64,000 nt of DNA from Spinacia oleracea. Lineage: Eukaryota; Streptophyta; Magnoliopsida; Caryophyllales; Amaranthaceae. The position numbers were made by a program, and so were the translations under genes. The notes below the pieces were generated by a model. The model was not told where the DNA came from. It worked only from the letters and a program-made list of their open reading frames with translations, and ran no database searches. Positions within the stretch are counted from its first letter, which is position 1. Each line of letters opens with the position of its first letter. The stretch is from NCBI RefSeq assembly GCF_020520425.1, contig NC_079487.1, positions 61,357,898 to 61,421,897 on the forward strand, written 5' to 3'. Shown here piece after piece: positions 4,552 to 55,882 of this stretch.

Positions 4552-4622
4552 AACCTATTAGCTCAAATGGTAGAGCAATGTGCCATTGCACATGGATGTA
4601 GGTTCAAATCCTACATAGGTTG
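4552..4622 (+). tRNA. tRNA-like sequence 1 (odd anticodon loop)
   Basis: The 71-base sequence folds as a cloverleaf. The acceptor stem AACCTAT (4552-4558) pairs perfectly with ATAGGTT (4615-4621). The D arm is GCTC/GAGC (4561-4564, 4573-4576). The anticodon stem is ATGTG/CACAT (4578-4582, 4589-4593), and the T arm is GTAGG-TTCAAAT-CCTAC (4598-4614). Box A- and box B-like sequences (TAGCTCAAATGG, GGTTCAAATCC) are intact. The anticodon loop is CCATTG, only 6 nt, without the usual U33 and anticodon geometry, so no amino acid can be assigned. It may be a tRNA pseudogene, a SINE head or a tRNA-mimicking element; function is doubtful. Confidence 0.45.
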
Positions 4623-5186
4623 TTGAGCAAACACCACTTATCTCCGATGTATTTATAGGGATAAGTCCGACGAGAGATTTAACCCCTTTCGCTATGACAT
4701 ATTCATCCAGCCCCCCCCCCCCCCCCCAGCCACTCAGTCAATAAAAACCAGTCATATTTATTTGTTTTTTCCACAGAAGGTTTGCTTAATTTATATTATG
4801 AGATGGGGCACATGTGACCAAAATTAAATAACAGATGCTCAAATGCACCTGTTAAATATCATCGTCCTCATCATCAAAATCATGAAATCCGATATTGTGT
4901 TTTGCGTGCATAGGCATTGGAGATCCTGTCTGCTGAAACCTCGGGGTTCTGCTGCATGAATTAAACCAGGCCCACAAGATGAACTCTAAAATGATAACTT
5001 AAGTTTCACGCCTCCTTCCGTTCAAGTGTAAGATTTCATGTTCTAAAGATCAAGGCTAGTGTTCTAAAAATGTATACATATGTTCTTAAATAAATAGAAC
5101 ATACTAAAAATTAAGTAGAAGTGATTCATAAGTAAAGAATCATCAAATATGAAAATTAATTAATATCATAAACAGAATACAAAGAG

Positions 5187-5257
5187 TTGCCTATGTAGGA
5201 TTCGAACCTACATCATTGTGCAATTGCACAAAGCTCTACCGATTGAGCTAATAGGCA
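5187..5257 (-). tRNA. tRNA-like sequence 2 (inverted partner, odd anticodon loop)
   Basis: On the minus strand the acceptor TGCCTAT pairs perfectly with ATAGGCA. The D arm is GCTC/GAGC, the anticodon stem TTGTG/CACAA and the T arm GTAGG-TTCGAAT-CCTAC. The box B GGTTCGAATCC is canonical. As in the partner at 4552-4622, the anticodon loop has only 6 nt (CAATTG). The two copies have the same length and architecture but differ at paired positions of the acceptor and anticodon stems while keeping pairing. They lie inverted, about 565 bases apart, inside the same mobile element. Pol III transcription is possible; decoding is not supported. Confidence 0.45.
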
Positions 5258-8458: not shown

Positions 8459-9530
8459 CTAGGATGTTGTGGCAGTACACTCCTTAGGAAGGCCTTGAGG
8501 AAACCTTTTCAAGTCTGTGCAGTAATTGTAAATCATGTAGTTGTTCTGCACCCACTTCATCCTAGTCTGACTTGCGTTATCAAGCTCTTGTGTCAACCAC
8601 CCGGCATTGCTAGTAGACGCTTTGGTTGAACGTGAGCTGCAGGATGATCTACCCTTTGCCACAAAACAAGCGTTGGCATTGAAGTTCCTGTATGATGCAG
8701 TAAATGGTGCTTTTGACCAATCTGCCTTCACTCTCCCACCTTGTGTTGCCCAATCATCTGCATTCCACAGACTCGAATATAGCCTCATTGGCTGCTTCTT
8801 GGGGAATGGAACTCCAATTGACTCCCAGTTTTTGAATTCTCTGATGGCTGTACCGTCAACTGAAAATCTGTAAATTGGTAAACACTACCATGAGCCTTTT
8901 GTTCCCTTGAAAGTTTACAAATTTTTTACTTGTCAGAATTAGTGTTTTAAGAATATACACAACTTACATAATTCTTCTCGGATTCCAGAGGATGGAATAA
9001 GTGTGGAATTGGGCAGTTGGGTCAAACCAGAGGTGAAATTGTTGTTCCCTTCCACCTTTCCCCTGGCTGAAGACATTTGTATGAAGTGTGTACGGGTGAC
9101 CAGAAACGTTACCCAAGAACTCGAAGTCTATCTCATCATGCTTTGGTCCTTGTGATGACAACTGCATACCAAAAAAAGATTTAGCCAACTGATATAGTTA
9201 GTTATTGACAGAATATGTAGATAATGCAATGCAAAAACTTACATAATAGGCGGTGACAGTTCCAGCAGAGTTTCCAGGGACGAGTTTAAGCTGCATATCA
9301 ATCTTACCAAATAGATACTCGTTCTTAGACTGAAACCCGGACCCAGAGGTTTTATCAAGTGAAAGAGTAAGCTGTTTTCCATTGTTGAGAACCTTGCCCC
9401 TACCATCACCCCAGGTGATGTCAAAGTCTCGGCCAAGGTTTCCATCCGCGGAGGCAACAACAACAACAACAACAAGGGAAGAAGCAATGATCAAGAGTGA
9501 ATAGCACAAGAAAGCAGGTGTTTGAGCCAT
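8459..9530 (-). CDS. xyloglucan endotransglucosylase/hydrolase (XTH, GH16)
   Basis: Three exons give a 296-aa protein: exon 1 9243-9530, exon 2 8968-9161, exon 3 8459-8867. The introns have GTAAGT donors and CAG acceptors. Residues 1 to about 28 are a hydrophobic signal peptide (run of Val before ASADG). The GH16 active-site motif [11 protein letters not shown] spans residues 104-114, with the expected nucleophile Glu106, Asp108 and acid/base Glu110. It is followed by the family's N-glycosylation sequon NVS (114-116). The C-terminal XET_C region has the paired cysteines and ends in the [10 protein letters not shown] motif. Length and motifs are complete. XTHs cut and religate xyloglucan in the wall during growth. 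From memory the sequence is close to the TCH4/XTH22-25 group, which is often touch- or hormone-induced; the exact subgroup is inference. Confidence 0.93.
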
Positions 9531-9576
9531 ACTGGTAAATGACTTAAAATTGATTGCTATGTTTGGTTACACAACG

Positions 9577-12723: not shown

Positions 12724-14070
12724 CTAACCTTTGGAAGATGATGGTACAACAAAGACGTGCAGTTTCACATGGTTTGGAGGAAGAGCCAGCCGCATAGGAT
12801 ATAGCTTTCCATTCAAAGGACTGCGTGAGCATAATGTAACCTCTGTTAACCCGGTCTCTTCCTGTAACATCTGAGTGAGCTCCTGCACGCCGCCACTCCC
12901 TTTGAAAAGAAAAGAACATTCCCCATCTTCTTCATCAACAATATTTCCATGATCATCCACGACATTATAATGTATAACACGGCCTTCATTTTTCACAGCT
13001 GATGCACTAAACTCACCAGGCTGAAATTGGAAAGAAAAACAAATTTTCTTAGACATTGTCCCAAGGTCATTTAACTTTTGAAATGCTCCATGAGCATAGT
13101 AATTGATCACATCCACCCATACCATCTAATTAAATTTCTAAATTTATTGGAGCAGGAAACATTCAAAAATTCTACAATGAGCATAGTAATTGATCACATC
13201 CACCCACATATTCCATCTAATTCTATTTCCCATTAGCATTCCATTTTAAATTAGAGAGGTAAAGCACTACTATACTAGGAACAAACTGAACTGGTTTTAG
13301 CAGGAAAATGCAGTAAACAACAACTTATAAAATGTAACATTCATGCCCATGTTAATTATAAAATGTACGAGCACAATCAGTTAAAGTTGATACTCCAATG
13401 GGTTTTTTAAAAAAAATCACCCGATACCCTTAAAACTAACCTACATCAAAATCAATTAACAACAACAGTAAAGTAGAAAGAAAAGAAAAGTTACCCCAGC
13501 ATTAGAATTGGAAACCCTGAGAGAAGAAGCATCAAACTCAGACTCACACCTCTCAAATTTACTCTTCTCCTTCTCTTCCTCCTCTTGAACCTCCACCTTT
13601 TGCACTTTGTCATCATAGACCTCCAAAACCTCAATCTCCCATAGAACCCAATCCTGGGTATGACTCCTACTAGGAACATCATGAGTAATCGAATTTCGCC
13701 ACGGCGGTAACCCACCATTTGCCCTTAAAAAATTACCGTACCTTGTCTTCAGCCTCACCTGCATCCCCTCCCTAGTAGGCTCCCACTCGATCGAGGAATC
13801 AAGCCGCCTCGGCAATGTTTGTTTCACCTTTTTCCCGGTTACCCCTAACAAGAATTCGTCGTCGGTGGCAGTTAAGAATTTGTTGAAGCAACTCTTGAAC
13901 CGGACCAGGTCTACCCCTTCCACGGATTTGACGTACTCCACACTCCATCGCGCGTACTTTGATCCGCCGTGGCGGTCTTGGCACACCGATTCGCCGTCGT
14001 CATCGGCGATCAGGTACTTGTCGTGGTGGCTTCGTAGGCGCACTGTTTTTGCGTTCTGGAATAAATCCAT
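12724..14070 (-). CDS. DUF569 protein, two-domain form (array gene 1)
   Basis: Two exons give 290 aa: exon 1 13495-14070 (192 codons) and exon 2 12724-13020 (98 aa), with donor GGG|GTAACT, acceptor TTTCAG and a phase-0 junction. Exon 1 is a full DUF569 domain (PF04601, proposed fascin-like beta-trefoil) with the signatures MDLFQNAKTVRLRSHHDKYL, ARWSVEYV, FLLGVTGKKV, LRANGGLPPWRNS and TQDWVLW. Exon 2 is the conserved second region of classic plant DUF569 proteins (VIHYNVVDDHGN, SRSPLNGKLYPMRLALPP), ending VVPSSSKG. This is the general form found in Arabidopsis. The biochemical role is unknown; 'actin cross-linking' is annotation by fold. A possible acceptor (ATACCAG) 10 bases before the ATG hints at a 5' UTR intron. 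An ~85-bp tandem duplication (13092-13123 against 13177-13208) lies in the coding intron. Confidence 0.88.
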
Positions 14071-15173
14071 CCCACCACCCTGGTATCCAACAAATAGAGT
14101 GTCAATAATTAATCAACAATCACAATAATATTGAAGCCGTATTCTCAAAAGAATAATATTGAATCACGAACCTATCTAATGCGGCCGTGCTCAGGTAATT
14201 GATTTATTTGTAACTTTGAACAAGAAACTGCAAAATTGGTTCAATTGGGATGTTTTACCGAATTGAGTTGCAGTGTTTTTGGATTGAATTGAATTGAATT
14301 GAATTTCTAGGAATTTGATTGGAAAATTTTAAGATTGGAAGAGTGGGGGGAATTTGATGATGGTTGTACGGTAACAAGACGACATGAACCACAAACTAAT
14401 TAACAATAGTACCAAAGCCGACCCAGAAGGATGGGGCTGGCTGCATGAACCACGAATATATTAGTCGTGTTCTTCGTGTACAAAGAATAAACCAATGAAT
14501 TAGGTGAAATGGGTTTATGATTGTATAATTTTGATGAAGAAACTGCAAAATTTAATCCAATTTAGATGATTGTTGTTTGGGATGTGAGAATATAATCTGT
14601 TGTTTTAACGGTCATAAGATTTTGATTTGGGTAGATTTAGAGAAAGGGGAAATTACTTTTTTTTGTTATTTGTTTTTTGAGTGACAGTCAGAAAACTTAG
14701 AAGTGGATGTAACGTCTGCTTTGCCGTAATTGATAGGATTTTCATATGAATTTGCTGGCCATGTCTTTTTGTATTGTTGACCAACATCCACACGTAAACG
14801 TGTATCATCTTCAATTATTGGATGATTAGATCATCATTACGGTAGAGATTCTAGTCATATTTGGCCGTATTTTCTTGTTTTATTACAGATCGTGTTAGAT
14901 AGACCGTGTTTTTTACTTAAACTCGCTAGTGGGTAAGACACATTTATGTAATTGCATGTTAATCTCAGAAGTAACATTCACATTTGTAATTTATCTTTCT
15001 AATAGAACTATTTGGATCGTTTTTGTTATATGCTAAGTATATCTATACGCACTAAAAAAAAAAAAAACAAAGAAAAAGTAAATTGGTTTTGTCAAGCATT
15101 TGATTAGCATGAAGAAATAAAATATGATAAAAAAAAGTGGGACAAAAGATTTGGATACGAAACAATAGCGCAC

Positions 15174-15845
15174 CTTGTAAGCACCAAGAACAAAAGCAGA
15201 TGTGGATGAGCCTGATGATACTGACTGATTACTTTGGTCCTCAACCGATGAATTAGAACGATTATGGCGAGTTAATTTTTGAGCAAAAGAGAAAGAAGAC
15301 TTATACAAAGAGACAGCTTTATTAGTATGAGATAATGTCTTGGAGTTATTTGGCCAAGAACATGTATCTAATTCTAAGTCACCAATTGCTGCATCATCAT
15401 CTAGAATATCCACCACCCAAAACACCCAATCCTGCGTGGTTTTCCTCTCGGGAACATCCACAGTTACCGTGTCCCTCCAAGGTGGAGTCCCGGCGTTAGC
15501 CCTGAGGAATTTCCCTGTGAGTGGGGCCCGCAGCTTAACGTAAAATTCTTCACCTATAGGCTCCCATTGTACTGATAGGCTGCAGTCAGTCTGCAGAGTC
15601 TGCAGGGCCTTCTTTCCTGTCCAGCCCAACAGGAAGGGCTCATCTGAAGCGGTCAGGTACTTTTCATAGCAACTCCGAAGGCGGACAGTGTTGCGCTTGT
15701 CTTGAACTAACTCCACAGCCCAACGAGCCTGTGGAATTTGACCTTGTTTGCTCTGCTTGACTGACTCACCGTCTGACCCAGCTATCAAGTACCTGTTGTG
15801 ATGGCTTCTGAGCCTGATGAATTTTGCTTTCGTGAAGTACTCCAT
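15174..15845 (-). CDS. DUF569 protein, first exon only recognised (array gene 2, partial)
   Basis: The exon starts at 15845 (MEYFTKAKFIRLRSHHNRYL). It carries a complete DUF569 domain in residues 1 to about 150, including FLLGWTGKKALQTL, LRANAGTPPWRDTVTVDVP and TTQDWVFWVVDIL, then a Ser/Asn-rich linker. The best donor is AAG|GTGCGC (phase 0), ending the exon at 15174 after 224 codons. Reading on gives a Phe-rich, AT-rich tail to 15033 that looks like intron. Unlike its neighbours, I find neither a coiled-coil exon nor the second DUF569-type exon between here and gene 1. It may be a truncated gene, may use a short exon I could not see, or may end in the retained intron. Confidence 0.7.
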
Positions 15846-16594
15846 CAGAAGGTCCTTCTAAATGTTGATGGGGGGCTTCTTTTGTTAATTATGATTTGTT
15901 AATTTAAGTGGTGCCTTGGTGGTGCTGCTTCTTGAGGAAATGGAATGGTTCTTGCTTACTTTCATCAACTTGTCAAACAAAATTGTGCACTTGAACATAT
16001 AAAATTCGGCTTGTTTTTCACTTTTGATTAAGTGAATTCATTGGTGGATTAGTCTTGTAGCACCATTTTAAGATTGTTTCAACGAATATTTTTATAAATA
16101 TGAACTCCTAATTTATTAGGTCAACAAATCATTTAGAAAAGTCATGCATGGTTGGTGCTGGTAATTGGTAAACAGCATTAGCATTATATATTTTTAAAAA
16201 TATTCCCAGTTGCTTACAATTTTGTGCTGACTATTTGTCTTATACAATCTTTTTACCTTGTTATTACTGAGACGTTTTTGATGTAGATCTTCCCCTGTAT
16301 TTGGCACAGTTGAGTTATAATCGAGACATTTTATTTGATGTTATAGTCAGATTGATTTATATGCTTCAAACTTTCAATTAAAACAGAACCGTGTTGGATT
16401 TACAATGTACTCTACCACTCAAGACATAGTTGCATATGAAAATAGAATGAAGTAGTTTGTTATTAACATGTACAAATGGCAGCTATGATACAGAACTGTT
16501 AACAAAGAATGGTGTAATACGTTGAGAACTCAGAAGTATCAAAAAGTTGGGTACATATGCCATTTCCAGAGACTTAGTAGGCCAAAATGCATGA

Positions 16595-18038
16595 TCAATC
16601 ATCAGGAAACATTAATTTAACCTTGATCCAGTCTTCCTCTACTCTTTCCAGCATTCTGTTGGCCTCAGTTTTCCTGAGCTGCCATGTTTCCTCCTCGATT
16701 TTCATCTCCTGAAGTTTCTGGCTCTTCTGTCCCATTCTTGATATCAGGTCTTCAACATCATCCAAATTATCAGCTTGAGCTTTCTGCACATCCTTAATGA
16801 TATTATCAATTTCTTCAAGTTGTTTCAACAACTCCTCTCTTGCGTTTCTTGCAATTTCTAACTCCACTTGAAGAGTCTCTAACTCACGAGCTTCAGCAGC
16901 ATCCTTCTTAAGTTGAGCCATTATCTTCAATTTTCTACTAGAGAAACTGTTATATTCAGTCAAATCCTTGGAGGCCGATTCATGTTCATTCTTCATCACC
17001 TTAAGATGCTCTTGTAAATTGATTAACTCACTAGGGATTATGCCTTGGGATTCTGCATCAGCAATAAGCACCTTTAAGACTTTTTCCAGCTTTTCGCCTC
17101 TTTCTGAAGATAGGATGGCATGGAAATCCAAGTCTTTTAGTTCTTTAAGAGTTTGCTTAGCCATTGCGACTTCAACTGCATGAAAGTGTTTTGAGGTAGA
17201 TTCCAGAGAAATCCCTGAGCTTTTTCCTTCATGTTTGGCGTCATCAAGTTGAACTTCCAACCCAGAATGCTGAAGTTAGGAGGACAAACACATTAACATT
17301 TTAGCCTAACTGAAAACCTGATAAAATAATTTGGTTTTGATGATAATACTTAATTTCTGGGTTAGTTTCCTAACAGAGTAGAGATAAAAGGCAGCTAGGA
17401 ATTGAAGCAATTGACAGAAATAAACATGTGTAAAGTGTATAGTTGATTGACACAGAAGAAGAATGACTGACCATAGGTTTGTGATCTGGTACATCACTTG
17501 ATATGGAAGAAGCAACGCTGATCCTATCCTCTTCCATTAATCCAGTAAAAGCACCAACATCCGGGCCAGGTGACTGATAATCAATCTCAACAATATCAAC
17601 GATCCACAAGATCATGTGATCAGTAACGGCCCAATTTCCCGGCTCATCATGGGTAACAGAATTCCTCCAAGGAGGAACCCTAGGATTGGCTCTTAGAAAA
17701 CTACCTGTATGACTCTTAAGTTTGATATAAGATCCATCTTTGATAGGCTCCCACTCTGATATGGGACCCTGGCTAATGGTCTGTATAACCTTTTTTCCTG
17801 TCATTCCCAGCAAGAATGGATCATCAGTTGCAGTTAAGTACCTGTGGCTCCAGCTGTTCCTGAGACGGAGGACATTGTCTTTTCCCTCAACAGCCTCATA
17901 GACCCAACGGGCTTTTTTGGATGAGTTTTCACGGCTTTGTTTGATTCTTTCATCGTCTTCATCGGCTGTCAGGTACTTGCTATGGTGGCTGCATTTTAGC
18001 CGAAACACCTTGGCTCTTTTGAAAAACTCCATTTTCAT
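16595..18038 (-). CDS. DUF569 + coiled-coil protein (array gene 3)
   Basis: Two exons give about 413 aa: exon 1 17472-18038 (donor ATG|GTCAGT) and exon 2 16595-17269 (acceptor CTTCAG), joined in phase 0. The neighbours begin MEFF, so the second Met (18032) may be the true start. Exon 1 is a DUF569 domain (FFKRAKVFRLKCSHHSKYL, FLLGMTGKKVIQTI, FLRANPRVPPWRNSVTHDEP, LWIVDIVEIDYQS). Exon 2 encodes about 220 residues of Lys/Glu/Leu-rich, proline-poor heptad-like sequence (KQTLKELKDLDFHAIL, then LKKDAAEARELETLQVELEI), a long coiled coil, so the protein probably oligomerises. Function and location are unknown; no signal peptide or transmembrane helix is seen. Confidence 0.85.
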
Positions 18039-18746
18039 ACAAAACCTGATTTACTCTTCATTACTTCTGGGTTTGGTTTTCATTGGAAGGAAAACTTGGT
18101 CAAACTTACATTGTCAATTTTCGCGATCTTACCACACGTTTTGGAACATACAAGGTAATTTTGCTTTCAATTCCGTGGACTTTTTCTTCCTCTTTTTATT
18201 TTATTTTATTATTTTAAATGGGTGGATCTCATTCCAAGTGAGCAAGCTTTTACAATGTATTTCGTACAAGTTGTCTGAGTTGTACAGCCTTAAATAATTG
18301 ATGATAACAGTTGTAATTATTAAACAGAATCGTAACTTGCCCTCAAACAAAATCTCTGTAATTCTAGTACAAGTATATATTTAATCTTTACAGGTGCCAA
18401 ATAAAAACCATAATCAATCATCTTAAGAAAAACACTTCATCTTATTTCCAGTTACATTTGGCTCAACTGGATTCATCCTTTGTCATAGCCTGTCTAATTT
18501 TAATGAGAATAATATTGGATCGGAACTACAGTCTGTTTGCCCCTTCGGCTATGCTGTATGTACAAACATAAATGCATAATAACTATGGAAGATTGACACA
18601 ATGGTAGCCTTTCTTTCTGATTGTCATGTATAAACTGAAAGCATAATGTAAAATGATATTCAAAGGTATGGCCTAATCAATCAATAGTCATTTTGATTAT
18701 TCTAAAAAAAGGTGCAAAATTGTACATGAATAGCCTGATGCAGAAT

Positions 18747-20234
18747 TTACTTGTTAACGGTTAATTCTGAAAATGTGGTTTTAACCTTTCCCCAGTCTTT
18801 CTCAACTCTGTCCACCAATCTTTCTGCCTCAATTTTCCTCGCTCGCCATGATCTCTCCTTGCTTTCCATATCTTTTAACCCCTCGCCCTTCTGCTCTATT
18901 CTCGATATAAGCTTGTCAACTTCCAGCACAATATCAGCCTGAGCTTTCTTAACATCCTTGATGGCATTTTCAGTGTCCTCTAGTTGCTTCATCAGTTGTT
19001 CTCTTTTGGCTCTTACATCTGCAATTGTGTTGTTAACTTTGACCTCAACTTTCTCTACCTCACGAGCCTTAACAGCGTCCTTTTTAAGCTCATCCCTGAT
19101 CTTTAATCTTCTTGTAGAGAATGTTGAATACTCTATTAAAACTTGAGAGGCTGATTCATGGTAATTCTTCATAGACTTGAGCTGCTCTTGAATGTTGACA
19201 AGTTTACTAGTGAATTTACCTTGGCCTATGGATTTTGCATCAGCAATTAGCACAGTAACTACATTCTCTAGCTTCTTGTCCTGTCCCAAGGACAATAAGG
19301 TACGAAATTCTAAGCTCTTCATTTGGTCAAAGGTATGCTTAAACCTCTTAACTTGGAGTGGTTGCACACATCCTGATGTAGATTGGACTGACACAATATC
19401 TGACTTGTTAACATTTGTTGCTTTGAGATTAGCAAAATGCTGAGATTAAGATCATAACCCCAAAAGATGTAACAGTGTTAATAGTCTTCAATTAAGAACA
19501 CAGCCCTGTAAATTTAATCTTCAAATTGATGATCCGTCTAAAACTAACACATAATTTGTTTTTATGAATGTGACTCTATAATCTAATCATGTTTGGTCAT
19601 TATGTAATCGGCTTCAATATTATGCTCTATTGGGAAGTACCTGTATAGAGGAACTTACATATATAGGAGGCCTAGCAGCTGGACATAAAACTTCCTGATT
19701 GGCTACATTGCAGGATGATGAAGCAACATTGACCTCCTCTGTTGATGTAGAATGACCGTTGCCCATCCTGGAGGACTGATAATCGATCTCGACTATATCA
19801 ACTATCCACAGTGTCATGTTTTCAGTGGCTGTCCAATGACCTGGCTCATCATGGGTGACAGAATTTCTCCAAGGGGGAGGTCCTTGGTTAGCCCTTAAGA
19901 AACTACCTGCATGACTCTGAAGTTTGATGTAAGACCCTTCTTTAATAGGCTCCCACTCTACTATAGGACCCTTGCTAATTGTCTGTACAATCTTCTTTCC
20001 TGTCATTCCTAACAGAAATGGATCTTCAGTGGTGGCTAAGTACCTCCAGCTGCAACAGCTTCTGAGTCGGATGAGTTTGGGCTTCCCCTCAACAAGCTCG
20101 TAGGTCCAACGGGAATTGTTTGAAGATTTATCGCGACTTTGCTTGATGGTTTCCTCGTCTTTGTGAGCTATCAGGTACTTGCTTTGCCCACTGCGTTTTA
20201 GCCGAAACACTTTTGCTCTGTGCAAGAATTCCAT
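18747..20234 (-). CDS. DUF569 + coiled-coil protein (array gene 4)
   Basis: Exon 1 is 19641-20234 (198 codons, donor CAG|GTACTT) and exon 2 is 18747-19439 (acceptor ATCTCAG), giving about 428 aa in phase 0. A second in-phase donor, TAT|GTAAGT at 19657-19658, lies 18 bases further upstream in the transcript and would drop six residues. Alignment with gene 5 favours the downstream donor, consensus strength the upstream one. The DUF569 domain has FLLGMTGKKIVQTI and FLRANQGPPPWRNSVTHDEP. The second exon (HFANLKATNVNKSDIVSVQ start, FDQMKSLEFRTLL, LISRIEQKGEGLKDMESKE) is a long charged coiled coil parallel to gene 3. The function is unknown; it is a clear tandem paralogue. Confidence 0.85.
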
Positions 20235-20870
20235 TTTCTGTTAAGAGGGACTTGTTTTGGACTTTGATTACAAGGGAAGGGAGGTAAAGCATAGGAATTG
20301 ATCGATCTGGTCCACTTGACTTTGTAGACTTTTAGTCTTTGTCAACGGGCATGATAAGCTGCTTGTTCAAGGGAGATACAAACAAATATTGAGTTTTGTA
20401 GAAACAAACAAACAACTAACATGTGTAACTTATACGTCGTATATTTTTTTTAATTATCGGGGAAAAATAAGTGACATAGACGAGATATTGTCGAGATGTG
20501 ATCTCATATTAGGGTACGAGTTTCATAAATGTTTTCATCTGAAGTTTTTCAGTACAGGTCGTCTTTCGCGATTGAGATGTCCCACGTCCTATCATAAACA
20601 GTTGGTGGCTTAATGGAGGGTCATGAACTCATTAATTTAGAATTGACATTATGGTTTGTTTCAAGTTGGACACAATACTACGTACTGTACAACTTTTCTG
20701 AGTTGTATGAGTTTGAAAAGTCATAAAACAAACTATGTTCTGTATAAAAATCAGGTTACATGTTCAGAAAAATGATTGAAGAGGTAACATATTAATGTTT
20801 ACAATATTTCAAATAGTATTTAATTTAATCATGAAAAGAATTAGATACAAAATGAAGGCCATTAAATTAA

Positions 20871-22378
20871 TTAAACATCCTGTAACAATGTCTTAATCTC
20901 AACCCACTCTTTCTCAACTCTCTGTAATTTTCTTTCAGCTTCAAGTTTCCTTGCTTGCCATGATTCCTCCTCTGCTTCCATCTCCTCTAGTCTTTCATTT
21001 TTCTTGGCTATTCGTGATCTGAGCACTTCCACAGCCTTGATGCTGCTATCAGTTTCTTCTAGTTCCATTAACAACTCCTCTTTGTTAGCTCTTGCATTTA
21101 CAAACTCATCACTGAACCATTTTTCAAGAGTGGCCTCTAACACACAAGCCTTGGTCACATCTTTATCAACCTCGGCCTTCATCTCCACTGTTTTACTAGC
21201 AAATGTAGCATATTCAACTAAATCCTGAGTGGCCAAATCATGGTCAGTTTTCATGGTCTTGAGTTGCTTTTGTAGTGTTTCTTGGCGCGATGTTTTTGCA
21301 TCAACAGAAACAACATTTACTGCCTTTTCTAGCTCCTTGTATAGTCCTAAAGATAAGATGCCATGAAAATCCATGTCCTTTAGTTCTTTGAGGGATTGCT
21401 TAGCCATCTTGACTTCTGATTGGTTAACGCGTTCTGTATCTAATGTTGCTCGTTCTTTTACACCATAAACTTTGTCTTCTAGGCCATCTAACATAGCTTT
21501 TAGGTTGCTGAAGGAGTCAGACTTCTGGGTTTAGGAACATAACATAGCCCGAGTCCAAGCCCAACAAAAGGTAAAAATGTTTGTTAGGAGTATTCTGAAT
21601 CGGAATGAGAAAAAATAAAAACACATTGGTGTAATTTTTCTGATTCTTTTAATGGTGTAATATTTTATCACATGGTTTTGAGTTGATTAGATGATTTAAA
21701 TCCAGAAAATGAAACAATTTTGGAAAGAGCAGAAGAAACATTTAAAGAAAAACATGAGAGTTATGGTCATACCTCGACGGAGGAAGACGAATACATAGCA
21801 GGGCCATCATCCTCAATTGACAAAGAAGAGCAATTTGACAAAGGTGTCTGATCCTTTACATTACTGAAGCGTGGAGGAACAACATTACCCTTAACCTTGT
21901 CCAATGATTTAGGAGTTGAATTATGATCAATTTCAACTATATCAACGATCCACAGAATCATACTCTCAGAAGCTGTCCAATGACCAGGAAGATCATGTGT
22001 AATGGTATTCCTCCAAGGGGGAAGGCCTCTGTTGGCTCTTAAGAAAGTTCCGGTATGACTTTTGAGTTTGATGTAAGGCCCTTCATTGATCGGCTCCCAT
22101 TCGACTGTAGGACCGAGCCAAGGTCTTTGTGCAACTCTCTTTCCTGTCATTCCAAGCAGGAAATGCTCTTCAGACGCGGCTAAGTACTTCCAACTGTTGC
22201 AGCTTCTGATACGGATCACATTGTTCTTTCCCTCAACAGGCTCAAAGGACCAACGTGTGTATGTTGAGGAATTGTCGCGGGTTTGTTTAACTGTATCTCC
22301 ATCTTGATCTGCTATCAGGTACTTGCTTTGGTTGCTGCTTTTCAGCCGGAAGACCTTTGCTCTTTGGAAGAATTCCAT
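20871..22378 (-). CDS. DUF569 + coiled-coil protein (array gene 5)
   Basis: Exon 1 is 21773-22378 (202 codons, donor GAG|GTATGA) and exon 2 is 20871-21524 (acceptor AACCCAG), giving about 419 aa, phase 0. The N terminus MEFFQRAKVFRLKSSNQSKY and the motifs FLLGMTGKRVAQRPWLGPT and FLRANRGLPPWRNTITHDLP mark a DUF569 domain. The linker is Ser-rich. The second exon starts KSDSFSNLKAMLDGLEDKVY and continues as about 200 residues of coiled coil (KQSLKELKDMDFHGILSLG, LEEMEAEEESWQARKLEAER). That exon is slightly shorter than in genes 3 and 4, mainly through a gap before the RIAKKNERLEEME segment. Function is not known. Confidence 0.85.
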
Positions 22379-23234
22379 TTTTCAGATAGCTGGGCAAGGG
22401 TTAAGGAATCAGTCTTTTCTTCTCATCATGGTTTTTAGGCTTAGTTTGTAAGGAAAAGGGAGAAAATTCATGGGAAAGTTCTGTTGAAAATGACTTGCTT
22501 CATATTGTCAAAATTGAGGACAATAATATACTATGCATTAATAATTCTAGATTATGGATTATTGCATCATACCGTGGCATACTAATCTTTGTCAAAAGGT
22601 GAAACTTTTTTCTGTCTTCCCTTGTGTAAATTGCAATAGTTAATTAAATATTCAGGGGTGGTACCCAACACCTAAATCGAATTTCGTCTACATCATTGAC
22701 CTCATAGTAGGCAGTAGCTAACGAATGGTAACTACAAAACTTTGAATAACGATTGGAACTTTTCAATCATATGTATAAATAAATATGTTTGAAGCAGGCA
22801 CGATTGCAACTTTTCTGAGTTGTGTGATTTTTTAAGTCATAAAGAATGTAATAGTATAGTACTGTAATTGACTAACTGTTGGCTGTCTATCTTCAATTTT
22901 AAGCTATTTTGCCTAATTATTTAGGAAGATTGGGATACTACGTTATCTTGTACATATCTTATACGGAGTTATGGAGTATCTTGATTTCATGCTGATAGCA
23001 TACTATCCTCCTAGGACATGTCATCACTGATGGTATAATTTGGTGTATTCCTTGTATTTATATTCCTTGCATCATACGTAGTACTCTGTAATATACAACT
23101 AAGAAATTTGTCTACGAATTTTGAGTAATAATATGTAGTACTTACGAAAGAAGCATAAGATGAATGAAGTTTGACAAAATTGCATACATATATAATGATA
23201 TAACTTGTTAGTTTTACATGAATTGGAACCACAA

Positions 23235-26194
23235 TCAAATGTCTTGAAGCAAACCCTTGAGCTGAAGCCATTGTTCCTCTACGCTCTCCAACGTGTTTTC
23301 GGCTTCAACTTTCTTAGCCTGCAATGATTTCTCATTCCTGTCCATTTCCCTAAGGCATTGACTGTTATCCCCCATTCTGGAAATAAGTTGTTCAATCTCC
23401 ACAGCGTTATCAGCTTGAGTTCTTTCGGCTGCCTTGATTCTACTGTCAACTTCCTCGATTTGCTTCAATAAAATATCCCTTTTGGCTATTGCTGTTGCAA
23501 GCGTATTGCTGAATCCGTCCTCTAAAGTCTCCAACTCGTGAGCCTTAGCAGCGTCCTTTTTAAGTTGAGCCTTAACCTCTAATTTCCTAGTGCAGAATGT
23601 TTTGTAGTCATTCAATTCTTGGTAGGCAAAGATACGGTCATTTCTCATAGACTTAAGCTGGTTTTTGAGGTTGATGAGGTCTTTAAGGGTGTCTTGGCCG
23701 TGGGATGAGAGTTTTGCATCAGCAATAAGGACATTAATGGACTTGTACATCCTCTTGTCTCTTCCAGAGGATAACATAGTTTCAAAGTTCATGTTCTTTA
23801 ATCCTAAAAGTGTTTGTTTTACCATCCTAACATCTAATTGATGAGGCTGGTGACTGCTAAATTCTGCTGAAGTCTCATCATCATCATCATCATCATCATC
23901 TGCTTTTGTATCTTCTTCTTCTGTGCCATCAAGTAAGTCTTGTAGACCATCTAACATGGATTTGAGTTTGTTGAATGAACCAGAATGCTTAGTTTGCGGC
24001 CAATCTTGGGTGGATTTCTCTGATGCTGTAGGACTTGCCCTTGGACTTGGAGTTGTAGGAACCTGTCAACATATCATAAACTAAATATATCAATCTCCAT
24101 GTTATAACTTACTCGTATATCATTGCTGCTCAATATAGCACCTATACTTGGTTTTAACTACTTTTTTATGTTATCTTCACATCGGTTTTAATAAGGTTCC
24201 TTACTAAAACCGCCAATGATACTAACAAATTATAACACTAGTTACTAAAGTGGCTCAGGATCTACCCTTCATATTGAATTATTATTCATGCTTACCAACA
24301 ACAATGTCACATTACCATTATTATTTGGTATGTAACTATATACATATTATTTTCCTTTCTTAATTGATTAGTAGCATCCCACATACGATTAATTCGTACA
24401 TATGCACAATGCAACTACTGCAGAATTTATTTGACTATGATTCCAACTGCCACCTCATCAAAATATCCCATTTAGACTTTAGAGTGGTCAAATCGATCGT
24501 GAGTCAGAGTGACACACAACTAGTTGTTTTTATTTTGATCTATTCCTTATTATTGTATGTTTGACAAATTCTACCTTAAGCTAATAATCCAAAATGTCAA
24601 TGGCTTGTAAGGTTAGGGACAATATTGACATGTTTAAAATACGAGAGGAAAATAATATGGAGTACTCCGTAGTAAAATTTTAGGGACCATTATGTTTTTA
24701 TATTTCTTCCATTATCTTTATCGATTGCACCATTTAATCTGGATCACACACTCCAAGTTATTTTGACAAGTTTAAAATACGAGAGGAAAATAATACTCCG
24801 TAGTAAAATTTTAGGGACCTACGTTATTATATTTATTTTATTATCTTTATCGATTGCACCATTTAATCTGAATCGATATAAAAATTTTAAAAATGTTCAT
24901 ACAAGTACAAACAAAAGAGAGAAGGTTATGTATCAAAGGTAAATATAAAATGTGCTTAGGAGTAGAATGAGTATTAGGGGTGAAAATATATCATGAGACT
25001 ACGAGAGATTGAGAGCAAATAGTCCAAACAATATGCAACTTCCAAAAAAAGTAAAAGGGTGCAATTAAAAATAAACACATAGGTGTACAAGTTATAGTTT
25101 GGTCCCGCAATGCCACGATATAATTCGTATCTAGTACATACACCTAATTTCCTCACCCTGTTATCCCCCATTATTTCTTATTTCTTAACTACCTTTCGAT
25201 CAGAGTCTCCATCAACTTACCTAATTGGTTCTTGCAACAGTACAATACGATCCTTACTCCTAATTCCTAAAGCTTTCAGTTAATAATATTGATATTCTCC
25301 ACATTTGTGAATGAGTATAATTTATCATTAAAATCATGAAACTATGTTTTAATGAAGTAAAACTGAAATTATGGAAATAAATAGTAATAATCGTTTAGAT
25401 GATGACGTAAAATGTGGGTGAATTTGTAAAACATGTGACAGTTGTCCTTCCCAAATGCACAAAGCACAATAAACCTTAGAAAGAGGTAACAATAATGCAC
25501 ACCGTTGAAAATAATAATAATAAAAAAAGAATGTGGATCCACTAACCTCAGAATTAGAACGAGCAGACGTAGGTGTAGAACTGGAAACAGGGGATCCAAC
25601 CTGATAACTATGTTTAGCCTCCTCCATTGTTGTAACAGATGAAAAAGAGCCATGAATATGATCCTCTACATTACACCCTATTGACTCTTCAACAACACTG
25701 TTTTTATCTTCAACATCATCCGTTGATTGATAGTCAACCTCAATAATATCAACGTTCCACAAAATCCAATCTTGGGTAGTATTCCTAGAAGGAACATCAT
25801 GTGTAACGGAATTGTTCCATGGAGGAACCCCAGCGTTACCTCTAAGGAAGTTACCGTTACGGGTCATTAGTTTGACTAGAGAGCCGGAGCCGTGTTTTAT
25901 AGGCTCCCATTCAACCGTTGAGTCGAGTCGGAGCCTAGGGGATGATTGGAAGACTCGCTTTCCTGTCCATCCAAGGAGAAAAGGCTCCTCAGATGCGGAT
26001 AAGTATTTCCAGCTATAGCAACTTTTTAGACGGATGACATTTGGTTTACCTTCAATTGGCTCAATTGTCCAACGTGCATTCTTTGATGACCCGTTTCGGC
26101 TTTGCTTGACGGAATCTTCGTCTTCTGAGGCCGTCAAGTATTTTTGGTGTTGGCTTCGGAGACGAACCACTTTGGCTTTCTTGAAGGAATCCAT
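23235..26194 (-). CDS. DUF569 + coiled-coil protein with Asp run (array gene 6)
   Basis: Exon 1 is 25547-26194 (216 codons, donor GAG|GTTAGT) and exon 2 is 23235-24062 (acceptor TTGACAG), giving about 491 aa, phase 0. The 1,484-bp intron is far longer than the ~200-250 bp introns of genes 3-5. The DUF569 domain reads MDSFKKAKVVRLRSQHQKYL, FLLGWTGKRVFQS, LRGNAGVPPWNNSVTHDVP, TTQDWILWNVDIIEVDYQS. It is closer in these blocks to genes 1 and 2 than to genes 3-5. Exon 2 opens with a Pro/Ser-rich linker (VPTTPSPRASPTASEKST), then SFNKLKSMLDGLQDLLDG, an eight-Asp run encoded by a GAT microsatellite, and about 190 residues of coiled coil. A TTTACAG acceptor-like site 19 bases before the ATG suggests a 5' UTR intron. 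Confidence 0.85.
24626..24873. repeat. tandem duplication inside the gene 6 intron
   Basis: Two diverged copies (about 24626-24745 and 24768-24873) share the order TAAAATACGAGAGGAAAATA, ACTCCGTAGTAAAATTTTAG and TTATCTTTATCGATTGCACC. The spacing is about 140 bases. Each carries one TACTCCGTAGTA motif. Confidence 0.8.
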
Positions 26195-26785
26195 TCATCC
26201 AATTTGGTTCTGTAAATGTAAAATTAAAATGTGATTCATTGTACAAGTAGAATATCCAAGGTAGGTTGGATGGTTTTATATCAAACGATTTCCCCTCTAT
26301 TTGGGGTGGGCCCTTTATTGCTTGGACTTGGAAACTTGGAAACTTGGAAGGAAGGAGGGAAAGGAAAAGGACCGTTTATTTAATGTCTAAAAGGGTAATA
26401 ATAATATAGTTTACTCACTAAATGGTTTTACTCGGTTTTGTCTCTATTTTTCTTGGTGGTTAAGATTTTGGATCTAAATTTAGTCCACGAAGTTTATATA
26501 GCCCATGCCTTGCCTCCTAAGTATTTTCGTTCCGACTTTTAAAATATCTTTCAAGTATAAGGTGTGTTTCGGAGTTGAAACGATGGTATGAGCGTCCTTA
26601 GATCATGTTTGGCAATCATTTTCAGCCATCTTAAATGATTATCTCTATTATATAAGCCAGCTTCTGAGGACATTTTAGTAACTTAACTTTTCGTGTCCAC
26701 CTGCAAAAAGACAAAAATAGCCTCACACCCTCCCATTTCGTTGGTTAACGCTGAGTCTCTTTCTCCCGCTCGAGAATTGGAATTT

Positions 26786-26945
26786 GTATTATTTTAGGGG
26801 AGTTTCAACCCGCTGGAAGATTGAACTTGTATTATTTTAGGGGAGTTTCAACCCGTGGATAGAATTTGAACTTGTATTATTTCAGGGGATTTTCAAACCG
26901 TTGAATGAAATCTCGAACTTGTATTATTTCTGGGGAGTTTCAACC
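26786..26945. repeat. four tandem ~45-bp repeats
   Basis: The core TTGTATTATTT(T/C)(A/T)GGGGA(G/T)TTTCAA recurs four times at roughly 45-base spacing. It lies at the far edge of the minus-strand LTR-element interior, next to array gene 6. Confidence 0.85.
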
Positions 26946-27092
26946 CGTTGGAAATGTTTTGAATTTTGTATTGGGGAGCAATGGTAAGCAAGATTTCTTT
27001 GTAGCTTGAAGATGAATTTGGAATTTGAATTTGGCTTGAAATTTGAACTTTGAAATGGAAAGGACGCACTTTTGTATGAGGCTTTGTATTTG

Positions 27093-27850
27093 AAAAATCC
27101 GGCATTATGCCGCCGTAGATTTGAAACATTGAATTTAGGAACTTGAAAGTCTGGCATTATGCCGCCGTGGACTTGGAATCTTGAAGTATAGGATTTGAGG
27201 TTTGAAATATAGAATAGAAAAGTCGGCATTACGACGGTATGAATTTGGAATTTGACCCTTGAAGCTTGAAATTTTGAAAGGTCGAGTTGGAAAGTCGGCA
27301 TTATGCCGGTATGGGCTCGGATATTTGAACTTGAGTTTGAGGTTTGAAGACTTGAATGTTTGAAATAGGAAATCCGGCATGACGCCGTTGGATTTGAACT
27401 TGAAATTTGAAACTCGAAATTTGAACTAGAAAATCCGGCATTATGGCGCCGTTGGATTTGAGGTTTGACTTGAAACTTGAAACTCGAAATTTGAATTTAG
27501 AAAGTCCGGCATTATGGCGTCGTTGGACTTGGATTTGAAAATTGAGGTTTTGGACTAGAAAATTCGGATTTGAACTTGAAACTCGAAATTTGGACTAGAA
27601 AATCCGGCGTTATGACGCCGTTGGATTTGAACTATGAAAATTGAGGTTTGGATTTGAAATTTTGGATTGAACTTGAAACTCGAAATTTGGACTAGAAAAT
27701 CCGGCATTATGACGCCGTTGGATTGAATTTTGAATTTGGAACTTGGAATTTGGACTCGAGAATCCGGCATTATGACGCCGTTAGATTTAATTTTGAACTT
27801 GGAACTTGGAATTTGGACTCGAGAATCCGGCATTATGACGCCGTAGGATT
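27093..27850. repeat. array of ~11 palindrome-centred repeats
   Basis: Eleven degenerate units spaced about 55-100 bases each contain a palindromic core such as CCGGCATTATGCCGCCG, CCGGCATTATGACGCCG or CCGGCGTTATGACGCCG. They alternate with GAATTTGAACTTGAAA-type filler. The repeat ORFs on the minus strand (starting MPDF or MPDS) are by-products. The array lies in the interior of the minus-strand LTR element. Confidence 0.8.
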
Positions 27851-27860
27851 GAATTTTGAA

Positions 27861-28742
27861 TTTGGCATTTGTGCGTGAGGCGTGTTTTAGGGGTTTGGAA
27901 TCAAATGGAGTGACACTCCTAAAGACCCTAAAATCGGCGATTTAGATGCATGAGGTTTGAATGATGCTCCTAGGGGTTTGGTTTCCTAGTTGGAGGCTAA
28001 TTGGTTTTGGCAAGTTAGAACTCGAGGTTAGCCATTCATGCGTGCAAAGACACCCACACAATGCACAAGTAGCACGTTGTCACACTAATCATGAATATGA
28101 ATGCGACATGCAAAGTTCTCAACCTAAGGTCGGTCTAAGTTTTGTATGATGCAAGTGGTCGGCTTTGGGTGTCAAAAGGTACTCGGCTAAGAGACGGATC
28201 CGGCGACAAGCTGTCACATCCGCCTAAGGGAAGTGCGTGTCGGAAGACGGCCTCCATACTTGACATAGGGAATGTCAAGTAAATTCCAAGCTTCGGTAGG
28301 CGCGGAAATGGTCACACACTTTGGTCGGGAACCGTATGGAGAGTCACCATTTCGTTGCCCCCGGGGCTAGCCCGAATGTAGAACACATCCGTTTGGGCAA
28401 AGGTAGAAATTCATTTTGCACAATATGGTTTTCGAAAAATGCATGAAATGCCTAAAAATTGAAATTGAAATCGTACTTGAATTTGTATTTGTAAAGCTCT
28501 TTTTTCGGCACTTGTTCACGAGGTTTGGGAGCGTCCTTCCAGATTCAAAAATAGACTAACTCCCAACACGAAAAGTTGAGCAAAAGTGGGCAACTAGCCA
28601 CTGTGAGCCACTGTCCTGGATGCAGGCAGTGGCGTTGGGCGCAGGGGCTGCGCCTGGCGCCATTGCTGGCATCCAGTACTTAAGAAGATCAGTGGCTTGT
28701 TGCTCGAAATCTGCCCGCATTTTCGAATTGAAATTAGTAGAA
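27861..28742 (-). other. leader/interior of the minus-strand LTR element
   Basis: This stretch follows the primer-binding site on the minus strand. It contains a GC-rich patch with inverted GGCGC/GCGCC segments (28618-28668) and no ORF with recognisable gag or pol motifs. The minus-strand ORF across the PBS (28556-28789) has no family resemblance I recognise. Confidence 0.45.
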
Positions 28743-34854: not shown

Positions 34855-36077
34855 AAAACACCCTCTCGGCGGAGCTTTGTCTACGAACGAGGCAGCGACA
34901 CTCTCTTCTCCAGTTCTTCCATTCTTCCTGCTGCTTCTTTTTCTCTCTCCTCTCTATTCCTCCCCAAAACGTCGGTAACTGTTCTTTTTCTTTCTCTCAA
35001 TATTTATGATATTGTCAATTTTAATAGTCTTTTTATCAATTGAATTCCTTTTCTAGTATTGTGGTTGAAAATCCTTTTGTTCATTTTCTAAGTATGCCAT
35101 TTGGGAAGAAATTTCTTAATTTTGTTAATTTCAACTCATACCCAATGCACTTTAAAGCATATTTTTTCTTCAAATTATTGGATATAATTTTATTTTTTTG
35201 AAATTATGATTATTACGGATTAGTTTAATTCTATTCAGAGAAATTGTTGATTAGTTGAAATTTTATGGATGATTATACGGGATAAAACCTATTTTAACTG
35301 TTCTCGGGTTCCCTTGAGTAAAAATGAGGGATTATTGAAGGGTTTAGTTAGTTGTGTAAAGGCATTGCTTGTGTGTATGAATTCTAGCTTATTTGTTGAA
35401 AGTTGTGTGTTATGATTTTGTTATTCTTCCAAGGAAAGAAGCTAGGTTAGCTCGTCGTGTTTATTTGTGTATCGTTGTGTCTTTTTACACTTTTTTGGTT
35501 ATGTAGCGGAAATCATTTTGTTGAATTGTGCTTAAAAGAGAGGGGAGAGTGGATCCCTCAATGTGGTTTGGAGATTATTTTATTGCCTGTTACATCAAAT
35601 GGTTGAGAAATATGAATTACCTAGGAGGCTAGGATGTCTGTTTTAAGTCTGAAAAGGCTGTAATTAGATATTTAGATGAGCCTATTGGATTACTAATACA
35701 TGATACAATAAAAATTTGGTGCCGAAACCAATCAAGTACCGCTTAAAAGCTCCTTTTTGTTGTCTTTAGAAAGAACAGATCATTGTCTATGTTACTCTGG
35801 CTCGGTTAGAACTTAGAAGTACCAGACTTGGATATTTGTCTTTACTCTTGAGTGTTAGACACGGCCATTTTTTTAGTACAAAATGGAGTGTTTAGAGTGT
35901 CATACCGATGTTTGAGTGTCAAGTAACTGACACCGGTACTTAGGCGAAATAAAGAGTTAGAGTAGTACGCTGAGTAACATAGATTATTGATATGTTTGTA
36001 AGTGGATTGTCATGATGAAGGTCAAGCTCTTATCCCATAATATGCATCCTAAAACTGTATATGTTAAGTTTGTGTAG
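34855..36077 (+). other. probable 5' UTR exon and 5' UTR intron of the PPR gene
   Basis: A CT-rich, UTR-like segment (34855-34974) ends in CGTCG|GTAACT (donor GT 34975-34976). The next good acceptor before the coding region is TTTGTGTAG at 36077, just before an in-frame ATG (36079). The intervening ~1.1 kb is T-rich, intron-like DNA without coding potential. Confidence 0.5.
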
Positions 36078-38088
36078 GATGCTTGACAGTATCTTGTTCA
36101 TGGTGGATGGTGGCGTTCTTGCAGTAACACACATTCAACGAATTTCAGCTGCTAAGAATAAGATTCATGGACATAGAACTCGACGTATCATCACAAAAGC
36201 CTCATCATCTTCAACCAAAGATGTTTGGTCCAGATTACCATCACAATCTGCTGCTTCTTCATTGTCTACTTCTTTTTCACAGCAACCACCTCGAACACAC
36301 CGCCAAAATCCACCACAAAGAAACACTTTCTTAGACCACAGCATTGACATGGATGATTTGCTGAAATCTATAGCCCAAACCGAGGATGAGGGAGAGTTGT
36401 TTGCTTTATTGTCACCTTATAAAGGCAGGCAACTATCTGTTAGGTTCATGGTCTCTCTTCTTTCTCGGGAATCAGATTGGCAACGTTCTATTGCATTGCT
36501 TGATTGGATAAATGATGTTGCTTTATATGCCCCATCAGTGTTTGTATACAATGTTGTTATCCGTAATGTGCTTCGGGCGAAGCAGTGGGTGGTTGCACAT
36601 GGCCTGTTCGACGAAATGCGGCAGAGAGCTCTGGCCCCTGATAGGTATACTTATTCGATGCTTATTACTCAATTTGGGAAAGAGGGCATGTTTGATTCTG
36701 CACTTTCTTGGCTGCAGAAGCTGGAGCAGGATCGTGTGTCGGGGGATCTTGTTTTGTACAGTAACTTGATTGAGTTGTCTCGTAAATTAAGTGATTATTC
36801 CAAAGCGATATCTTTGTTTTCGAGGTTGAAGAGGTCTGGTATTAGGCCTGACCTTGTAGCTTATAATACAATGATTAATGTCTTTGGGAAAGCTAAGCTG
36901 TTTTGCGAGGCTCGAGATCTGTTGAAAGAGATGAGAGAAGATGGAGTAAATCCAGATACTGTTAGTTACTCGACGCTTTTGAATATGTATGTGGAGAATC
37001 ATAAGTTTGTTGAGGCTTTATCTGTCTTTTGTGAGATGAATGAGGCAAAATGTGTTCTTGATCTTACTACCTGCAACATCATGATAGATGTTTATGGACA
37101 GCTTGATATGGCCAAGGAAGCTGATCAGCTTTTCTGGGGCATGAGAAAGATGGGTATTGAACCTAATGTTGTAAGTTATAATACTCTTTTGAAAGTGTAT
37201 GGAGAAGCGGAGCTTTTTGGTGAAGCTATACATCTTTTTCGCTTGATGCAGAAAAAAAATATTGAACAGAATATTGTTACCTACAATACCATGATAAAAA
37301 TATATGGGAAATCTCTTGAGCATGAGAAAGCTGGAAACTTGGTGCAAGAGATGCAAAAAAGAGGGATTCAGCCTAATGCAATTACGTATTCAACAATAAT
37401 ATCTATATGGAGCAGGGCTGGGAAATTGGATCGTGCTGCCAAGTTGTTTCAAAAGCTTAGGAGTTCTGGTGTTGAGATTGATCAGGTTCTATATCAGACA
37501 ATGATAGTGGCTTATGAGAGAGCAGGATTAGTTGCTCATGCAAAACGGCTGCTTCATGAGCTTAAGTGTCCAGACAATATCCCTAGAGACATTGCCATCA
37601 CTATTCTTTGCAGAGCTGGAAGGATTGAAGAGGCCACATGGGTTTTTCGACAGGCATTTGATGCTGGTGAAGTGAAGGATATTTGTGTATTTGAGTGTAT
37701 GATTGAACTTTATTCAAGAAACAGGAAATATAGAAATGTCATAGAGGTGTTTGAGAAGATGAGAGCAGCAAGATACTTCCCGAATTCAAATGTTATTTCT
37801 CTCGCCTTGAATGCTTATGGAAAAGTCAGAGATTTTGAAAGGGCTGATTTAGTGTATAGAGAGATGCGAGAAGAGGGCTGTATTTTCCCTGATGAAGTTC
37901 ATTTCCAAATGTTAAGTCTGCATGGGGCAAGAGGTGACTTTGAGACTGTGGAATTACTTTTCAAGGCGCTTGATTCTGACCCCAACATAAACAAGAAGGA
38001 ATTGCATCTAGTTGTTCGTAACGCATATAAATCAGCTAAAAGACTCAGTGATGCTGCTACAGTCATCAATGATATGCCTGACAAATGA
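36061..38088 (+). CDS. P-class pentatricopeptide repeat protein, probably chloroplast
   Basis: A single uninterrupted 675-codon ORF. From about residue 150 to 640 it consists of back-to-back 35-aa PPR motifs (about 13), such as PDLVAYNTMINVFGKAKLF, PDTVSYSTLLNMYVENHKF, PNVVSYNTLLKVYGEAELF and PNAITYSTIISIWSRAGKL. No E or DYW extension follows, so it is P-class, typically for organelle RNA stability, translation or splicing. The first ~70 residues are rich in Arg, Ser and Lys without acidic clusters, like a transit peptide. From memory the C-terminal half closely resembles Arabidopsis At5g39980 (EMB3140), also about 680 aa. If the 5' UTR intron ends at 36077, translation starts at the Met at 36079 and the first six codons are not used. 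The stop is followed by a CT repeat (38225-38244) in the probable 3' UTR. Confidence 0.92.
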   Translation: MLSLCRMLDSILFMVDGGVLAVTHIQRISAAKNKIHGHRTRRIITKASSSSTKDVWSRLPSQSAASSLSTSFSQQPPRTHRQNPPQRNTFLDHSIDMDDLLKSIAQTEDEGELFALLSPYKGRQLSVRFMVSLLSRESDWQRSIALLDWINDVALYAPSVFVYNVVIRNVLRAKQWVVAHGLFDEMRQRALAPDRYTYSMLITQFGKEGMFDSALSWLQKLEQDRVSGDLVLYSNLIELSRKLSDYSKAISLFSRLKRSGIRPDLVAYNTMINVFGKAKLFCEARDLLKEMREDGVNPDTVSYSTLLNMYVENHKFVEALSVFCEMNEAKCVLDLTTCNIMIDVYGQLDMAKEADQLFWGMRKMGIEPNVVSYNTLLKVYGEAELFGEAIHLFRLMQKKNIEQNIVTYNTMIKIYGKSLEHEKAGNLVQEMQKRGIQPNAITYSTIISIWSRAGKLDRAAKLFQKLRSSGVEIDQVLYQTMIVAYERAGLVAHAKRLLHELKCPDNIPRDIAITILCRAGRIEEATWVFRQAFDAGEVKDICVFECMIELYSRNRKYRNVIEVFEKMRAARYFPNSNVISLALNAYGKVRDFERADLVYREMREEGCIFPDEVHFQMLSLHGARGDFETVELLFKALDSDPNINKKELHLVVRNAYKSAKRLSDAATVINDMPDK

Positions 38089-55420: not shown

Positions 55421-55882
55421 AGAAATGTAATCCTTAGTTTTTTTTTTTTTTTTTCTTTCATTGATTAATAAAGTGGCAAAGCTACTATTTATGGTTTTAG
55501 TTTATTATAGTTGGAGAATAAATGTTATGGCATTAGTGGATGTAAGACTTATTCATTGGAGTTTTAATAAAAGAATAGAATTTCCTTTTTGTTATCCTTT
55601 AAGTTTAATTCTCAATTCTAAGTCGTGTGGGTATCGCAAAGGGATTATTTGTTATTTCTTTAATGAAATTTTATGTGCAAGGTGGTTTAGTAGCAACCAT
55701 CTAAATTTACTTGCATCGAATAGTGGGGCGAGAAGGCCCGAAAGTGGCGCCAACTCTTCCCCTAGGTGGCGCCTAAGTGTGTGTTCTTGTTGTGAGTAGG
55801 TTCGTTGTAGAACCAGTACCTTAGTAATGTCGTGTCCAACCAATATTAAAGCTAGCCTTTTTATTTATTCAGGAGAAGGGAT
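55421..55882 (+). other. spacer between the acidic ORF and gag of element A
   Basis: It contains a T run (55440-55455) and a GGTGGCGCC-rich patch (55720-55770). No coding sequence is seen apart from a chance 112-codon ORF. Confidence 0.4.

Follow-up and report, generated by a model that had tools for sequence, protein, structure and literature searches.

AT1G27100 of Arabidopsis is a protein of 519 amino acids (aa) in which tandem beta-trefoils are followed by a ubiquitin-like domain (UBL), and it serves here as a reference for an array of DUF569 (PF04601) exons in spinach (Spinacia oleracea), located within a 64,000-nucleotide stretch of DNA (contig NC_079487.1, positions 61,357,898 to 61,421,897; hereafter the window). 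Fascin, an animal actin bundler, is built of four beta-trefoils, and plant proteins with a MATH domain and a coiled coil combine a small beta head with a coiled-coil tail. The spinach array seems, judging from its exons, to comprise four old tandem genes, each encoding a beta-trefoil and a helical tail, beside one ordinary DUF569 gene. We put at roughly 60% the probability of the fuller reading, in which an ordinary DUF569-DUF569-UBL gene stands next to four old head-tail paralogues whose tails would display the trefoils as oligomers.

Among the described relatives, AT1G69890, a DUF569 protein, acts in drought and nitric-oxide responses and has published mutant phenotypes (PMC8158135; PMC7378322), and its best Arabidopsis match is AT1G27100, termed an "actin cross-linking protein" (PMC7378322). 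ACLP1 (AT1G69900) is induced by flg22 and AtPep1, and the aclp1 mutant shows higher Pseudomonas susceptibility and lower ethylene, with reactive oxygen species as in the wild type (PMC11149889). Experiments on mitogen-activated protein (MAP) kinases have yielded phosphopeptides from both AT1G27100 and AT1G59710 (PMC5727051; PMC4202796), the latter being classed as a DUF569 protein (PMC3433687), and DUF569 is among the domains of nucleotide-binding leucine-rich repeat proteins in Fabaceae (PMC11734081). As far as the available parts of these sources go, the Arabidopsis members respond to nitric oxide (AT1G69890) or flg22 (ACLP1) and have mutant phenotypes, with no biochemical action given. The statement in an earlier, sequence-only reading of this DNA that the function appears undescribed is therefore too strong for the family, given the mutant phenotypes of AT1G69890 and of ACLP1, which we take to be a DUF569 protein.

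We number the six DUF569 exons of the array G1 to G6, in the order in which they would be transcribed. The predicted gene comprising G5 and G6 has the layout of AT1G27100 and a similar length (517 vs. 519 aa), whereas G1-G4 differ from it in that a helical tail follows their single trefoil, with no second trefoil or UBL. In comparison with fascin, the spinach heads give very weak profile matches only, below the cut-off, and the four trefoils of fascin contrast with one or two here, combined with a UBL or a helical tail. MATH and coiled-coil proteins offer a comparison only in the way they may work, the head fold being different. ACLP1 has two exons and trefoil-type (fascin-like) domains in common with the head-tail genes, but it is 397 aa long with two fascin-like domains, and the available text of its paper lacks the word "coiled" (PMC11149889). 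In the titles and abstract openings of the papers retrieved on DUF569 and its Arabidopsis members, no DUF569-coiled-coil protein is named. The DUF569 family is already known, and the head-tail form is a new variant of it.

Gene models of the array

Between 12,724 and 26,194, the minus strand carries the six DUF569 exons in head-to-tail order, as the sequence-only reading had it; they were found by a Pfam scan and a PF04601 search of the whole genome. The scan, from which G1 was left out, returned E-values of 6e-66 to 2e-44 for five heads, and all six exons score 151-222 bits, above the curated PF04601 cut-off of 23 bits. The genome search covered one plant genome (894,210,420 bases in 242 contigs; for repeats and large families such counts are minimum values) and scored ten candidates, eight of which were matches. 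Contig C1 holds all eight: six (G1 included) belong to the window, and two lie at a second locus, L009, about 64 Mb away. The array also contains five second exons, namely four helical tails and one UBL exon. In agreement with the earlier claim of phase-0 junctions throughout, the five pairs of head and second exon read in phase 0 on both sides, and the G5 donor is likewise phase 0. The predicted exons of the head-tail genes, all on the minus strand, are:

25547..26194, minus strand: G1 exon 1, DUF569 trefoil and linker, 216 aa; donor GAG|GTTAGT, phase 0
23235..24062, minus strand: G1 exon 2, linker and helical, coiled-coil-like tail, 275 aa; preceding intron 1,484 bp
21773..22378, minus strand: G2 exon 1, DUF569 (Pfam), 202 aa
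20871..21524, minus strand: G2 exon 2, predicted helical tail, 217 aa; intron 248 bp
19641..20234, minus strand: G3 exon 1, DUF569 (Pfam), 198 aa
18747..19439, minus strand: G3 exon 2, predicted helical tail, 230 aa; intron 201 bp
17472..18032, minus strand: G4 exon 1, DUF569 (Pfam), 187 aa
16595..17269, minus strand: G4 exon 2, predicted helical tail, 224 aa; intron 202 bp

We infer the splicing of the array exons from these models, in which a GT donor closes each head exon and an AG acceptor precedes each tail exon, both in phase 0, giving predicted products of 411-491 aa; in G1 an in-frame stop lies immediately 5' of the ATG. It is very likely that the DUF569 head is joined to the helical tail in G1-G4. 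A homologous tail follows all four heads of the group in the same phase, and the introns within G2-G4 (201-248 bp) are, by their coordinates, shorter than the distances from the end of a unit to the next start codon (636-856 bp), which supports the head-tail units. In the models of G1-G4, a linker and a helical exon follow a single trefoil, taking the position that a second trefoil and a UBL occupy in the tandem-trefoil gene. The remaining exons of the array are predicted to form a tandem-trefoil gene:

15174..15845, minus strand: G5, first DUF569 exon, 224 aa; phase-0 donor (previously read as a DUF569-only gene)
13495..14079, minus strand: G6, second DUF569 exon of the same predicted gene; proposed acceptor CAG|GGTGGTGGG-ATG, phase 0, in frame
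12724..13020, minus strand: ubiquitin-like exon, PF22932 (Pfam), end of the tandem-trefoil gene

The last of these exons passes the threshold of PF22932, the DUF569-associated ubiquitin-like domain (27.3 bits, cut-off 24.3). The claim that one gene carries the classic second domain therefore stands in so far as a PF22932 exon lies behind G6, but G6 probably shares its gene with G5. The proposed acceptor CAG|GGTGGTGGG sits nine bases 5' of the G6 ATG, so that the exon starts at 14,079, and a tblastn comparison of all exons over the window (E 0.01) gave no tail or UBL match between G5 and G6. The joined product would have 517 aa (224+3+192+98).

The same arrangement recurs at L009, the one further DUF569 locus that the search of the 894-Mb genome brought up. 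Its order is a first DUF569 exon, 4,957 bp in which no tail or UBL matched at E 0.1, a second DUF569 exon and a UBL exon. The first DUF569 exon ends in a phase-0 donor (AAG|GTACGT), and the acceptor (CAG|CGGTCAGGG-ATG) lies in frame, nine bases ahead of the ATG in the second; these junctions were read by eye and are phase 0 throughout. G6 groups with the second L009 head in the head tree (support 95/91), and the UBL exons of G6 and L009 are 54% identical over 93 aa. Because L009 shows the same layout and phase-0 junctions, and because the second heads group together and the UBL exons are alike, G5 and G6 are most likely one DUF569-DUF569-UBL gene, and the array most likely holds five genes (G1-G4 and the joint G5/G6 gene) rather than six.

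Two other ways of dividing these exons into genes have to be considered. The helical exons could be independent genes that happen to follow DUF569 exons, since the exons were found one by one by search and their joining to the heads is inferred. However, the tail exons lack a start codon at their beginning (their first in-frame Met occurs at residue 36, 11, 40 and 36 in G1-G4, respectively) and carry in-frame stops just 5' of the acceptor in each of the four, which makes separate genes unlikely, as does the likeness of G1 and G2 ahead of the first Met of the G2 tail: five of ten residues are identical there, and the G1/G2 DNA match spans this stretch (74% over 70 bp). Together with the constant position and phase of the tail behind all four heads, this leaves independent tail genes very improbable. 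The other division, into six separate genes as in the sequence-only reading, would turn G5 into a pseudogene or a truncated gene with DUF569 only, and G6 into a DUF569-UBL gene of its own. In its favor, the G5 open frame stops 141 bp beyond the proposed donor, that donor (AAG|GTGCGC) is weak, G6 has its own start codon, and single DUF569-UBL proteins may exist in plants. Nevertheless, at L009 the phase-0 donor of the first DUF569 exon is followed by a gap that gives no tail or UBL match and by an in-frame acceptor nine bases before the second ATG, and the read-through tail of G5 is intron-like, being hydrophobic and T-rich. With the tandem layout repeated at L009, the six-gene division was rejected, and we regard it as improbable.

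The intron that leads to the UBL exon contains a duplication of about 60 bp with 84% identity (13081-13229).

Composition and relatives of the helical tail

All four tails are mutually homologous (36-49% identity; E-values from 3e-57 to 5e-26), contain 33-39% charged residues and have few Pro and Gly throughout. Heptad contrast, a score of our own that was compared with 500 shuffles and is not a standard coiled-coil predictor, gave z = 4.0, 2.3, 4.7 and 4.0 for the tails of G1-G4, with 0, 9, 0 and 0 of the 500 shuffles reaching the observed score; four heads used as controls gave z = 2.3, -0.6, -0.9 and 1.1. When the tails were halved, the contrast was higher in the C-terminal half of all four, nearly equal halves being seen in G2. 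The score was reached by 0, 37, 0 and 1 of 500 shuffles for the C-terminal halves of G1-G4, and by 46, 42, 9 and 6 for the N-terminal halves, which are marginal in G1 and G2. On these sequence properties, the tail is probably a helical coiled coil. The proposal of four coiled-coil exons is thus upheld as regards mutual homology, charge and heptad periodicity, with a weak signal in G2 and marginal N-terminal halves in G1 and G2, and the architecture of a trefoil head on a helical, coiled-coil-like tail, amplified in tandem, is retained.

No Pfam family passed its cut-off with any of the four tails, and a PDB search with one tail and with the tail profile yielded no credible relative; a match to ApoE (E 0.009) was taken as a generic helix match. 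With the G4 tail as query (28 candidates scored), the genome gave the four exons of the array plus a weak match (E 8.9e-4), and with the G1 tail (seven candidates scored) it gave those four exons and a chance match (E 6.7); the G1-tail match to G2 extends beyond the acceptor, hence one stop was counted in it. An intact helical exon was thus found only in the G1-G4 array, and the idea that the tail is common to other gene families of this genome was rejected at the sensitivity of these searches. In viral contigs, the tail alignment gave 563 pattern matches, none of which was confirmed.

The weak G4-tail match lies on contig C2 and combines broken G2 tail-exon sequence with intron sequence. This dispersed copy (C2:86163500-86173499, positions 4645-5186) includes part of the intron that precedes the G2 tail, is 83-90% identical in DNA to the G2 sequence, contains stops and a deletion, and has no DUF569 match beside it. 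It is a piece copied at the DNA level.

Age, selection and exon mixing

The heads of G2-G4 form a clade (support 100/100), with synonymous divergence (dS) of 0.99-1.11 and ratios of nonsynonymous to synonymous divergence (dN/dS) of 0.17-0.24 in all three pairs. Across all heads, dN/dS is 0.12-0.24 in the 12 of 28 pairs with finite dS, several of them near saturation; the other 16 pairs are dS-saturated, give no ratio and were excluded. The six tail pairs have dS of 1.0-1.4 and dN/dS of 0.30-0.50. With dS near or above 1 and dN/dS clearly under 1, the array consists of old, retained duplicates under purifying selection, with the tail less constrained than the head. The suggestion of a family under diversification is therefore at odds with the ratios in both the G2-G4 heads and the tails, on which diversifying selection was rejected.

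It had also been suggested that first exons could combine with different second exons. The common phase would permit this, but G3 and G4 have both the nearest heads (71% identity) and the nearest tails (49%), and the only split in the tail tree, G1 and G2 against G3 and G4, is weak (72/81) and compatible with the head tree. Exon mixing is not supported: there is no sign of it, four tails being too few for a strong test.

Possible function of the head-tail proteins

On the best reading, which draws on the analogy with Arabidopsis, G1-G4 would encode oligomeric versions of Arabidopsis-type DUF569 stress and immunity proteins. The helical exon would form dimers or higher oligomers, and several single trefoils would thereby be displayed together, so that oligomerization might give G1-G4 the multivalency that the ordinary gene obtains from covalent tandem trefoils. 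The trefoil may then bind a target as a scaffold, with the actin filament, a glycan or a protein partner as candidates, and such a scaffold could act in stress and immune signaling, as suggested for the Arabidopsis members, the immune role being conjectural. If the tail does oligomerize, this natural variant would show that multivalent trefoils are the part that matters, and would raise the simple question of whether forced oligomerization can replace the tandem trefoil.

Several observations weigh against an oligomeric stress or immunity protein. The heptad signal of the G2 tail is weak, and its z of 2.27 is unconvincing on its own because one control head reaches 2.26. The likeness of the head profile to fascin is very faint (PDB E ~0.5). 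In the 3,756 bases upstream of the five start codons, W-boxes are not clearly enriched (5 vs. 4.3 expected; core 13 vs. 8.5), and counts of four other promoter motifs are below expectation. ACLP1 is presumably a DUF569 protein, but its paper does not use the term. Finally, AT1G69890 is reported to regulate responses to biotic stress negatively (PMC7378322), in the opposite sense to ACLP1.

In the linkers, taken from residue 156 onward, Ser/Thr-Pro sites number 5, 1, 0, 0 and 0 in G1-G5, G2 and G4 having one further site each right at the residue-156 cut, and the first exon of L009 has two. By eye, the Ser-Pro phosphopeptide reported for AT1G27100 (PMC5727051) resembles the Ser-Pro linker of L009. 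Since the sites are uneven across G1-G5, shared MAP-kinase control of the array is not supported.

Other accounts of the tail and head can be weighed against oligomeric display. The tail could instead be a compact helical-bundle interaction domain with a short C-terminal coiled coil, in which case the proteins would be monomeric adaptors rather than oligomers. The weaker heptad signal of the N-terminal half would fit this, but the high charge and scarcity of Pro and Gly extend all along the tail, and no compact family was recognized in the Pfam and PDB searches; we consider such a bundle unlikely, though by no means far-fetched. As to the head, the trefoils might act as lectins rather than as actin or protein binders. 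The G2 head does pass the threshold of RicinB_lectin_2 (PF14200; 27.2 bits, cut-off 25.6), but it is the only one of the five heads scanned to do so, and DUF569 scores far higher in all five, which makes a lectin role rather doubtful. An actin-binding role, in turn, has fascin (PF06268) matches of E 0.01-0.08 in four of the five heads, the best reaching 16.3 bits against a cut-off of 23.1. Because these matches are below the cut-off, or at E ~0.5 in the PDB search, the label "actin cross-linking" rests on the fold superfamily, and it should be used with caution here, being almost without sequence support. A bolder version of oligomeric display would set the DUF569-stalk proteins apart as an undescribed class of plant scaffolds with multivalent trefoils, whose second trefoil and UBL would have given way long ago to a unique helical exon. 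Different paralogues could then assemble into mixed oligomers and offer combinatorial sets of heads to an immune or stress ligand; we hold this scheme as a whole to be a long shot. In bacterial and archaeal contigs, the head alignment produced 36 pattern matches, none confirmed.

Other features of the window

Just upstream of G1, dense imperfect tandem repeats with periods of 13-97 bp occupy 26765-27865; the open frames that they yield overlap and carry an RRHNAGF-like motif. A pair of tRNA-like sequences, one at 4552-4622 (plus strand) and the other at 5186-5257 (minus strand), are oppositely oriented with about 560 bp between them; ARAGORN assigns them no anticodon. By eye, a 689-aa open frame at 36019-38085 (plus strand) is pentatricopeptide-repeat-like, open frames at 8462-9566 (minus strand) are xyloglucan endotransglucosylase-like, and those at 55856-56713 (plus strand) resemble the Gag of retrotransposons.

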